Source: an uncultured Sphingomonas sp.
Lineage (GTDB): Bacteria > Pseudomonadota > Alphaproteobacteria > Sphingomonadales > Sphingomonadaceae
DNA length: 64,000 bases
Assembly: GCF_937871615.1 (NCBI RefSeq)
Contig: NZ_CALMPA010000021.1
Span: 124,001 to 188,000, forward strand
Direction of reading: 5' to 3'
Shown piece after piece: positions 54,605 to 57,367 of this stretch (positions are counted from its first letter, which is position 1; the number at the start of each line of letters is the position of its first letter). Under the pieces are notes generated by a model. It was not told where the DNA came from and made no database searches. It saw nothing but the letters and a program-made list of their open reading frames with translations. The position numbers and the translations under genes were made by a program.

Positions 54605-54704
54605 TTTCTGGTCACCAGTTCTTAGCGCTTTTCCGATATCGCCCCGCGATCAAGGCGTGTCCCGGCAGGAAGCGGGGCCAAGGCGCGTTCAAGGGGATCA
54701 TATT

Positions 54705-55781
54705 GTGGAGTTCATTGCTGCGCGACAGGTACAGGACGGCAGCACGCCGCTTGGTCTGTTCGAGCGGATCGGCCTGTTCCTGGCCGAACACCATCTAAGC
54801 CCCGAGCCTGCGCATTATTCATTTTCATATCACGTGCTTAGCGATCCAGACGGCGATCTGGCGCGGGCCGTGACGGCGTTGACGGAAGGCGGCGTGCGGC
54901 TATCACGCGCCGATATCGTATCGCTGGGCGGGGAGGCGATCACCGGCCCGGCGGTGGAATGGGGGCCTGATCTTCCGCGAGTCGCGCCACCGGTCGATCA
55001 GCCCGATCCGGTCGCGCTGATCGCCAAGACGCAGGAGCAGGTCGATGGCTTCGCCGATACGGTGCGCGCGATCCATGTCGAGACGAGCGGCTTTGGCCGG
55101 GATATCGCGGCCAGCGCGGCGGCGATGCGCCATGATACGCTCGGCGAAGGGATAGACGAGATCGCGCGGCTGACCGGCGCGATGCTCGAGCGCGTCCGCC
55201 AGGTCGAGGCGCGGCTGGAGGCGGCAACCCGCGAGACCGAGGAATTGCGCCTCGCGCTCGATGTCGCGCGCGGCAATGCGCGGCGCGATCCGCTGACCGA
55301 TCTCGCCAATCGCCGCGCCTTCGATGAAGCCTATGCCGCGCTTACCCCCGGCACATCGGCGATGATCGCGCTGTGCGATGTCGATCATTTCAAGCGCGTC
55401 AACGATGATTTCGGCCATGCGGTGGGCGATCGCGTGCTCAAGACGATCGGCCAGCGGCTCGCCAGCGAATGCGAAGGCCATCTGGTCGCCCGGCTCGGCG
55501 GCGAGGAATTCGGCGTTCTGTTCGTCGGCGTGGAACTGGATCAGGCGCACCTACTGGTCGAGCGCGCGCGCAGTTCGATCGCGAGCCGGCGATTGAGGCT
55601 GCGCTCGACCGATGCGTTCATCGGCGCGGTCACCATATCCGCCGGCCTCGCGCGGGTCTTCGCCGCCGAGCGGCAGGAAGCCGGGATGGCGCGCGCCGAT
55701 GCCGCGCTCTATGCCGCCAAGCGCGGCGGGCGAAACCGCGTGGAAATTGCGCCTGAAACTGGCGCTAAACACCAAATTTAA
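54705..55781 (+). CDS. GGDEF diguanylate cyclase
   Basis: 358 residues from GTG 54705, chosen because AAGGGG lies eight bases upstream; a GTG at 54657 would add 16 residues. Residues 1-90 form an unrecognised helical sensor-like region. A coiled coil (about 100-205) leads to the GGDEF domain with DPLTDLANRRAFDEAY, CDVDHFKRVNDDFGHAVGDRVL and the active GGEEF variant LGGEEFGVLF. It should make cyclic di-GMP. The I-site RxxD is not obvious. It lies just upstream of the sigma-54-type promoter and twin small membrane peptides. Confidence 0.88.
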   Translation: MEFIAARQVQDGSTPLGLFERIGLFLAEHHLSPEPAHYSFSYHVLSDPDGDLARAVTALTEGGVRLSRADIVSLGGEAITGPAVEWGPDLPRVAPPVDQPDPVALIAKTQEQVDGFADTVRAIHVETSGFGRDIAASAAAMRHDTLGEGIDEIARLTGAMLERVRQVEARLEAATRETEELRLALDVARGNARRDPLTDLANRRAFDEAYAALTPGTSAMIALCDVDHFKRVNDDFGHAVGDRVLKTIGQRLASECEGHLVARLGGEEFGVLFVGVELDQAHLLVERARSSIASRRLRLRSTDAFIGAVTISAGLARVFAAERQEAGMARADAALYAAKRGGRNRVEIAPETGAKHQI

Positions 55782-55848
55782 GCGGCGTTTTTTGCCAAAC
55801 TGCCCGCCACTGGCGGTTAAGCCACTGATTTGGCGTAACCAAAAAAAC

Positions 55849-55864
55849 TGGCACGGCTCGTGCA
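55849..55864 (+). promoter_or_regulatory. Sigma-54-type (-24/-12) promoter
   Basis: TGGCACG at 55849-55855, four bases, then GTGCA at 55860-55864. The essential GG and GC doublets are ten bases apart, and only one base departs from the TGGCACG-N4-TTGCA consensus. Upstream sit inverted repeats CCGCC/GGCGG (55804-55816) and GCCAAA/TTTGGC (55794-55834), possible enhancer-protein sites. Expected transcript start near 55876, about 43 bases before the first small gene. Confidence 0.65.
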
Positions 55865-55918
55865 GTTCCTTCGGCATCGGCCGCCAATCCGGCGGCCCGC
55901 AACAGGAAGGACCACAGC

Positions 55919-56029
55919 ATGACCGCCCGTTTCACCACCGCCCGCCATTACGCGCTGAGCCTCGTCGGCGCGCTGTTCGTCGCCGCATTGATGGTCAGCG
56001 CCGCCGTCCCCGTCATGCCGATCGCCTGA
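55919..56029 (+). CDS. Miniprotein A, single-span membrane peptide (36 aa)
   Basis: MTARFTTARHYALSLVGALF... is a 36-residue peptide with a basic N-terminus, one hydrophobic span (about residues 12-34) and the end VPVMPIA. Ribosome site AGGAAGG at 55904-55910 is ideal. It lies between the GGDEF gene and a second tiny gene, behind a sigma-54-type promoter. No family is recognised. It could be a signal-like membrane peptide or a regulator of a membrane protein. Confidence 0.7.
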   Translation: MTARFTTARHYALSLVGALFVAALMVSAAVPVMPIA

Positions 56030-56057
56030 TCGCAACCACCCATCCACGGAGAGACAG

Positions 56058-56144
56058 ATGTTCCGCCCCTTTGCCCTCGGCCTCGCCTCCTTCGCCACCG
56101 CCGCGCTGCTGATCTACGTCAACGCCGTCAGCGCCATCGCCTGA
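56058..56144 (+). CDS. Miniprotein B, single-span membrane peptide (28 aa)
   Basis: MFRPFALGLASFATAALLIY... is a 28-residue peptide with one Arg, one hydrophobic span and the end VSAIA, similar to the end of the peptide encoded 28 bases upstream. GGAGAG stands eight bases before the ATG. The length, spacing and two good ribosome sites favour a real tandem pair over noise. Function unknown. Confidence 0.6.
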   Translation: MFRPFALGLASFATAALLIYVNAVSAIA

Positions 56145-56161
56145 CAGCAGCGCCGCGGCGA

Positions 56162-57367
56162 TCACCGCCCGACCGGGAGATCCTTGAACGCGGCATCCTT
56201 GTCGACACGGATCTCGCCGGGCAGGCCGAGCACACGCTCGGCGATGATGTTCTTCAGGATTTCATCCGTTCCCCCCGCGATGCGCAGGCCCGGCGCGTTC
56301 ATCACCGCCGTCTGGAACAGGCCCTTCAATGGCACCAGCGCCGGATCGTTGATGATCCCGTATTGATCCTCCGCCTCCACCGCCGCATTGCCCAGTTCCT
56401 GCAACTGGTTGGCGGCGATGATCTTCCCGATCGAGCTTTCCGGCCCCGGCGTCTGCCCGCGGCTGAGCGCGGTGATCGTGCGCATCCGCGTGTTGCGCAG
56501 CCCTTCGGCCTGCACATACCAGTCGGCGAGCCGCTGGCGGAATGCCGCGTCGCGGATCAGCGGGCCATCCGCCGCATCCAGTTCCTTCGCCAGCGCGAGG
56601 ATTTCCTTCGGCCCCGCGCCGGTGCCGCCGCCCACCGCGAGCCGCTCGTTCATCAGCGTGACCAGCGCCACCTTCCAGCCGGCATCGACCGCCCCGAGCC
56701 GCTGCGCGTCCGGGATGCGGACATCCGTGAAATAGACCTCGTTGAAGTTCGATCCGCCGGACATCTGGTGGATCGGGCGAATCTCGACCCCCGGCGAGCG
56801 CAGATCAAGCCAGAACATCGTCAGCCCCTTGTGCTTGGGCACATCGGTGTTGGTGCGGACAAGGACGATCCCGTAATCCGAATAATGCGCGCCGGAGGTC
56901 CACACCTTCTGCCCGTTGACCAGCCAGTCATCGCCATCACGCACAGCGCGGGTGCGGATCGCCGCCACATCCGATCCGCCCGCCGGCTCGGAGAAAAGCT
57001 GCGACCAGATTTCCTCGCCGCGCAGCGCCGGGCCGACGAAGCGCCGCTTGGTCGTATCATCCGCAAACGCCATCACGGTCGGCACGCACATGCCGAGGCC
57101 AATCGTGAAATAGCCGTATTGAACGGGGAATTTCGCTTCCTCCTGCCCGAAGATCACGCTGTGGATCGGGGTGCCCCCGCCCCCGCCCCATTCCTTCGGC
57201 CAGGTGATCTGCGCATAGCCGGCACCGGCCTTGCGCGCCTGCCAGCTTCGCGCGGCGGCCATATCGTCGACATGGGGAAGCGCCTTGTGCTCGGCGACGT
57301 TCTTTTCCAGCCAGGCGCGCGCGGCGGCGCGATAGCCGGCTTCTTCCGGGGTGTCGTTGAAATCCAT
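56162..57367 (-). CDS. Acyl-CoA dehydrogenase (large partner)
   Basis: 401-residue flavoprotein of acyl-CoA catabolism. It has the FAD/substrate motifs IWSQLFSEPAGGSDVAAIRTRAV, WLVNGQKVWTSGAHYSDYGIVLVRT and the C-terminal GGTDEILKNIIAERVLGLP. Paired with a second, smaller acyl-CoA dehydrogenase 15 bases upstream; such pairs form alpha2-beta2 enzymes in steroid-side-chain breakdown, so the two may work as one heteromer. GAGAGG precedes ATG 57367. Confidence 0.88.
   Translation of the reverse strand: MDFNDTPEEAGYRAAARAWLEKNVAEHKALPHVDDMAAARSWQARKAGAGYAQITWPKEWGGGGGTPIHSVIFGQEEAKFPVQYGYFTIGLGMCVPTVMAFADDTTKRRFVGPALRGEEIWSQLFSEPAGGSDVAAIRTRAVRDGDDWLVNGQKVWTSGAHYSDYGIVLVRTNTDVPKHKGLTMFWLDLRSPGVEIRPIHQMSGGSNFNEVYFTDVRIPDAQRLGAVDAGWKVALVTLMNERLAVGGGTGAGPKEILALAKELDAADGPLIRDAAFRQRLADWYVQAEGLRNTRMRTITALSRGQTPGPESSIGKIIAANQLQELGNAAVEAEDQYGIINDPALVPLKGLFQTAVMNAPGLRIAGGTDEILKNIIAERVLGLPGEIRVDKDAAFKDLPVGR

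Follow-up and report, generated by a model that had tools for sequence, protein, structure and literature searches.

Two small genes of an uncultured Sphingomonas, hereafter mini1 and mini2, very probably constitute a stand-alone target operon of the phage-shock activator PspF, comparable to pspG of Escherichia coli. This reading draws on features computed here in the window (the whole 64,000-nucleotide stretch of DNA analysed) and in related genomes, namely the two frames and the selection acting on them, the conservation of a sigma-54 promoter, the match of the upstream sites to enhancers of the psp type, the linkage to pspC and pspA, and a hairpin beside the predicted 5' end of the transcript (Table 1).

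Table 1. Features of the mini1-mini2 region, with positions counted from the first base of the window; negative distances are to the first base of the sigma-54 box.
Feature	Position	Strand	Remarks
GGDEF diguanylate cyclase gene	54657..55781	+	Pfam GGDEF, E 1.4e-33; upstream neighbour
Distal enhancer-like site, TGGCGCTAAACACCA	55760..55774	+	9/10 consensus matches; starts at -89, counted from the TGG of the box
Proximal enhancer-like site, CGGCGTTTTTTGCCA	55783..55797	+	8/10 consensus matches; starts at -66
Sigma-54 -24/-12 promoter, TGGCACG-N5-TGCA	55849..55864	+	89/89 non-redundant mini1 loci; 35/40 weaker HMM hits
Predicted transcription start, A of GGCATC	55876	+	Inferred from spacing to the -12 element
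Hairpin GGCCGCC-AATCC-GGCGGCC, beside predicted 5' end	55879..55897	+	88/89 mini1 loci
Ribosome-binding site of mini1, AGGAAGGA	55904..55911	+	Shine-Dalgarno-like core in 87/89 loci
mini1, 36-aa miniprotein	55919..56029	+	Hydrophobic stretch 12-30; N terminus positively charged
Ribosome-binding site of mini2, GGAGAGA	56048..56054	+	Read in sequence
mini2, 28-aa hydrophobic miniprotein	56058..56144	+	27/30 loci L012-L041; pN/pS 0.36
Acyl-CoA dehydrogenase gene	56162..57367	-	Pfam; convergent neighbour

Promoter and coding character of the miniprotein genes

Sigma-54 promoters follow the consensus TGGCAC-N5-TTGC, in which GG and GC lie ten bases apart. The 16-base box of the window, TGGCACGGCTCGTGCA, keeps these ten bases between GG and GC and departs from the consensus by a G in place of the first T of TTGC, and the start codon of mini1 lies 70 bases 3' of it. 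The box by itself lacks genome-wide significance, the pattern TGGCACGN5TGCW having 10 matches in the 4.0 Mb genome versus 8 for the reversed control. It is significant because it is conserved upstream of mini1, where it was found within 140 nt in all of the 89 non-redundant loci (expected: 0.0048 per locus), these loci being non-redundant in the sense that they are not identical, many of them being close kin and the loci mutually related. They were drawn from 112 collected loci, with the upstream copy taken where there were two; the promoter was part of the DNA query that had retrieved the first 30, and the remaining ones were retrieved by protein alone. When 40 of the 48 weaker mini1 hits lacking a locus were taken, 35 carried the strict box as well. 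Judged by eye, three of the other five (L202, L209, L210) have near-consensus boxes and L206 is seemingly a downstream tandem copy, whereas L182 has no box. The sigma-54-type promoter claimed by a first-pass annotation is thus borne out. The genome indeed contains rpoN (Sigma54_DBD, E 2e-64), on which that claim had been made to depend, and it encodes seven strong enhancer-binding proteins: two NtrC-like proteins, PrsR, two FlbD-like proteins, PspF and NtrX.

The two tandem miniprotein frames described in the same annotation proved to be conserved in relatives, each preceded, as it had stated, by a Shine-Dalgarno-like core. Of 151 genomes from the genus (our own included), 109 gave matches in a DNA search, many of the weaker ones being short, and mini1 was present in all 30 loci that were read (L012-L041, from our genome and 29 relatives); in L034, L038 and L040 mini2 was not found by the script. 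An open frame is little evidence of coding here, because frame +2 is likewise open in every sequence, that is in 30 of 30 loci for mini1 and in 27 of 27 for mini2. The pN/pS ratio of mini1 was 0.27 over 33 close pairs, dN/dS exceeded 1 in 2 of 102 pairs (the pairs not being independent), and parsimony changes in 61 sequences were distributed as 280/137/372 over the three codon positions (p 7e-24), the second changing most slowly. For mini2, the ratio given in Table 1 was obtained from 24 close pairs, again not independent, dN/dS exceeded 1 in 7 of 49 pairs, and the codon-position changes were 28/17/40 (p 0.009) in 11 sequences of a 35-codon form, which is not the 28-codon form of the window. 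From these ratios and codon-position changes, mini1 is a coding gene under purifying selection, with strong evidence and with the synonymous bias that had been predicted for conserved frames, and mini2 is probably a coding gene, the evidence being moderate and weaker than for mini1.

The mini1 protein has a single hydrophobic stretch and a well-conserved C-terminal end, AAVPVxPIA. The end motif said to be similar in the two peptides amounts to a terminal I-A common to both; nothing further is shared, which leaves that claim weak. Homology between mini1 and mini2 was not supported in a profile comparison (hhalign probability 13%).

Searched with the mini1 alignment, a sample of the order gave matches in 72 of 396 genomes, spread over 10 of 84 genera; our own genus accounted for 39 of them, with 7 of its genomes listed without a match. 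The gene occurs in several genera of Sphingomonadaceae, and 52 named loci belong to Sphingomonas, Hephaestia, Sphingobium and a few MAGs, one of which is a Sphingopyxis. In a sample of the class, only 3 of 385 genomes were positive (our own, one relative of the genus and one weak hit), and plasmids gave no mini1 match. Neither protein matched Pfam or NCBIfam at E up to 10, and no description of either was found in the parts of the open-licence literature surveyed. The mini1 family thus appears to consist of one-helix miniproteins that are undescribed as far as these searches reach. Tandem mini1-like duplicates were seen in L101, L110, L137 and L206, and in the first two of these a PspC-domain gene lies behind the pair.

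A control region resembling psp promoters

The palindromes that the first-pass annotation had placed upstream of the promoter are present as two enhancer-like sites. Such sites were scored as matches out of 10 to TGGCG-N5-CGCCA and counted in 4-base position windows. Mean scores upstream of mini1 peak at -90/-89 and at -67, and a site with at least 7/10 was found in 49 of 89 loci in the distal window (from -92) and in 56 in the proximal window (from -69), versus a mean of 6.9 loci over all windows. Six of the first 30 loci (L018, L022, L024, L027, L032, L037) have the pair about ten bases nearer, four (L030, L038, L039, L041) have a best score of at most 7/10, a level that shuffled sequence also reaches, and in Sphingobium the majority of sites have a different sequence. 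A search of our genome for the exact enhancer TGGCRN5YGCCA followed by TGGCAC gave no match, and one hit for the reversed control, because the sites are degenerate.

For comparison, psp operon promoters were taken from the pspF-pspA intergenic regions of our genome and of 30 others (the 30 best PspF hits among 151), with pspA lying downstream in all 31. A site near -90 scoring at least 7/10 was present in 26 of these 31 promoters (window mean 1.7), and one scoring at least 6/10 in 29 (no control was computed at 6). On the same scale, the E. coli K-12 pspA sites are TGATG-AAATT-CGCCA at -100 (8/10) and TAGTG-TAATT-CGCTA at -80 (7/10), and the pspG site is TAGTC-AAATT-CACCA at -67 (6/10); PspF binds two sites at pspA and one at pspG (PMC3709507). 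The control region of mini1-mini2 therefore looks like a PspF promoter of the phage-shock type, as judged from these sequences. PspF itself is encoded in the genome (TIGR02974, 470 bits; cut-off 443.55), divergently from pspA (TIGR02977, 272 bits; cut-off 242.95). Of the 151 genomes of the genus, 147 have PspF above the cut-off, as do 380 of the 396 of the order. Fifteen of these 396 have no PspF match at 1e-125, and all 72 mini1-positive genomes lie outside those 15; this co-occurrence discriminates poorly, because PspF is nearly universal in the order.

The likeness to psp promoters extends to the predicted transcript start. Among the 89 mini1 loci 51, and among the 31 psp promoters 18, have the motif GGCA precisely at positions 24-27 of the box. 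Allowing it anywhere in a nine-base window raises the mini1 count to 63 and leaves the psp count at 18; a control window shifted 20 bases onward contains it in 8 and 1. Chance sites, too, often have GCA close to the predicted start, so only the exact position was used. By fixed criteria, the hairpin that follows was present in 88 of 89 mini1 loci (mono-shuffled rate 0.57, which is high because the region is GC-rich) and in 25 of 31 psp promoters (shuffled rate 0.17). The same criteria applied to the next 30 bases gave 2/89 and 4/31, and to an upstream stretch 23/89 and 12/31. Relative to dinucleotide shuffles, folding energies were only moderately low, with a median z of -1.8 for mini1 and -0.8 for psp promoters, and z fell below -2 in 35 of 89 and 9 of 31, respectively. 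The stems vary widely, with 57 distinct 5' arms among the 89 loci, and an Rfam search of positions 55700-56250 gave no match up to E 1. A stem at the 5' end of a transcript slows RNase E decay in E. coli; by analogy, the hairpin probably stabilises the mini1-mini2 mRNA. In the E. coli K-12 pspA leader (L168:3525-3580), a hairpin CAGGA-CAA-TCCTG can be seen by eye near what seems to be the transcript start.

Among the 10 boxes of our own genome, GGCA occupies positions 24-27 only for mini1, the psp operon and a lone PspC-like gene, whose best distal sites score 9, 8 and 9, respectively, those of the other seven boxes ranging from 5 to 8. Control of mini1-mini2 by a different activator, such as NtrX or the PEP-CTERM regulator PrsR, has to be weighed here, since an activator cannot be assigned from sequence alone and the genome encodes six strong candidates besides PspF, PrsR (TIGR02915, 671 bits) and NtrX included. 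Such control is nonetheless very unlikely, for the enhancer type and its position near -90 are those of the psp operon promoter divergent from pspF (26/31), and pspC and pspA as gene partners of mini1 argue against PrsR or NtrX. Control by PrsR had been the first lead, prsR being present, and was dropped because the same enhancer, start motif and hairpin recur at psp promoters and at the PspC-like gene. PrsR/RpoN-controlled PEP-CTERM genes are a comparable case, in which sigma-54 likewise governs surface-related genes; they differ in that mini1 has, by eye, no PEP-CTERM motif and that its enhancer and partners are of the Psp type.

Several observations were made around these other boxes and regulators. 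The lone PspC-like gene (L008, contig C45, 1501-1871; PF04024 23.0 bits, just below the cut-off of 25) has its own sigma-54 box, a GGCATC motif and a PspF-like site at -100, and is a candidate third PspF target. In L007 (contig C39), a box stands 69 bases before an 82-aa, secreted-looking frame (MKTLFLIAATSIAAAIVAAVPAGA...), with an enhancer-like site (8/10) at -79; this is possibly a further PspF target, or a chance occurrence. The box TGGCACGCGCCTTGCT in L003 (contig C11) lies just before what is by eye a flgB-like flagellar gene, has a best distal site of 6 and is probably an FlbD target. The PrsR-type response regulator of the PEP-CTERM system (L043, contig C20) is encoded beside a tetratricopeptide-like protein, as seen by eye.

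Gene partners of mini1

The first-pass annotation had proposed that the miniproteins and the neighbouring GGDEF enzyme form a signalling module for surface or motility behaviour, which would act through c-di-GMP. Indeed, 61 of the 89 loci have a GGDEF gene upstream of mini1 that points the same way, so that this neighbourhood is conserved within Sphingomonas. In the window, however, the GGDEF frame stops 67 bases before the sigma-54 box, ahead of the predicted transcript, and the distal site therefore falls inside its last codons. By script, the GGDEF frame spans the whole distal site in 19 of the 61 loci, the window included, and in five of these 19 the frame runs past the promoter. Part of the conservation of this neighbourhood may therefore stem from shared DNA instead of shared function, and the overlap alone could be enough to keep the two genes together. 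No upstream GGDEF gene was present within the examined stretch in 28 of 89 loci, including five Sphingomonas loci that have both mini1 and mini2 (L020, L025, L026, L029, L035).

In 19 of these 28 loci, from Sphingobium and other genera, the partner of mini1 is instead a downstream PspC-domain gene (in L132, for instance, PF04024 E 2.6e-15). This gene begins 131-151 nt after the mini1 start in 17 of the 19, and at 336 and 316 nt in L101 and L110, which have two miniproteins. Nine of the 89 loci have neither GGDEF nor PspC, among them L138, whose contig ends about 170 bases past mini1. The 40 weaker hits show the same division: a GGDEF gene upstream in 15 (all in our own genus), a PspC-domain gene downstream in 19 (all in other genera), a position directly before pspA in four (L196, L202, L209 and L210, the last fetched with prior knowledge of the adjoining pspF), and none of these in two. 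With PspC as the partner in other genera and enhancers of the psp type, the proposed c-di-GMP module is not supported and appears highly improbable, although, given how often GGDEF is linked to mini1 (61 of 89), the two may have some functional tie within Sphingomonas.

Genes downstream of mini1-mini2 vary between relatives, and in the window only mini2 follows mini1, because the gene beyond mini2 is convergent. Twelve of the 27 loci with mini2 (L018, L019, L020, L022, L024-L027, L029, L032, L035, L037) have similar genes, encoding MDLDRFVAAQ...ALAEL, that begin 40-47 nt after mini2 in the same direction and may be co-transcribed with it. Such an arrangement would suit a reading of the small frames as leader peptides or as an RNA-level device, in which the 5' hairpin and a short frame serve mRNA stability or downstream translation, and mini1 is indeed the first recognised frame after the promoter in all of its three settings (before mini2, a PspC-domain gene or pspA), with the hairpin common to them. 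We consider this unlikely, as the window has only mini2 behind mini1, and as mini1 is conserved at the protein level, its second codon positions having changed most slowly.

Proposed function and relation to known Psp components

From a mechanistic point of view, a PspF target operon would work as follows. Under stress of the inner membrane, PspA would release PspF, which would bind both enhancer-like sites and activate the sigma-54 polymerase at the box. The transcript would start near the predicted A with the hairpin first, which would probably stabilise the mRNA, and would encode mini1 and mini2 as two small inner-membrane proteins. Behind PspF-type promoters, the mini1 family stands before mini2 in Sphingomonas, before a PspC-domain gene in Sphingobium and others, and, within the psp operon, before pspA. 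Its members would most likely modulate the Psp membrane-protection complex or act as its effectors, like PspG, PspB or PspD. The binding of PspF, the induction by stress, the insertion into the membrane and the molecular role are what we infer from the features described above.

The nearest known counterpart is pspG, the only other PspF target of E. coli (PMC9239133). Like mini1-mini2, it is a small protein gene apart from the psp operon, with a sigma-54 promoter and a PspF site, which starts at -67, the place of the proximal site of mini1. PspG has 80 codons (annotated 243 bases), versus 36 and 28 aa for mini1 and mini2, and mini1-mini2 differs from pspG in having two genes, two enhancer-like sites and a 5' hairpin. 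It is best read as working like pspG while lying outside the PspG family, to which no Pfam match relates it. The PspC-domain proteins (PF04024) encoded beside mini1 in Sphingobium and related genera lie behind the same promoter type, but are separate proteins, and neither mini1 nor mini2 matches PspC.

A possible relative of mini1 occurs within the Sphingomonas psp operons themselves, where 28 of 31 loci have a small frame with one hydrophobic stretch after the promoter and ahead of pspA. This leader miniprotein, for which no published name was found in the parts of the open-licence literature surveyed, resembles mini1 in the length of the hydrophobic stretch and in its position after the promoter, and shares the enhancer site and the 5' hairpin. 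It differs in size, 22 of the 28 leaders being longer (42-48 aa) and six having 35 aa, versus 36 aa for mini1, and in its motif, GPA or APA rather than VPVxPIA. The match between the mini1 and leader profiles was weak (hhalign probability 33%, E 4.6e-4), so that the unity of the family rests on the hits preceding pspA in other genera and on the shared position and architecture. We see about an even chance that one-helix miniproteins leading PspF transcripts, with pspA, pspC or mini2 behind them on mRNAs with a 5' hairpin, are an overlooked core component of the phage-shock response of sphingomonads. If so, they would serve the PspA-PspC protection system as a sensor, adaptor or effector specific to this lineage, and would be made ahead of PspA.

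These results extend the reading of PspF regulons from sequence to a further lineage, where one genome has three candidate target units. They also add a family of miniproteins, not described in anything that the searches covered, whose genes stand alone or ahead of known Psp genes. A direct test of why Psp systems contain tiny membrane proteins is now possible. In three psp loci (L058, L069, L082), the leader position is taken by a frame that is longer or of another kind, and the distance to pspA is about 650 bases; the replacement frame of L058 and L082 looks secreted and has a similar hydrophobic N terminus.
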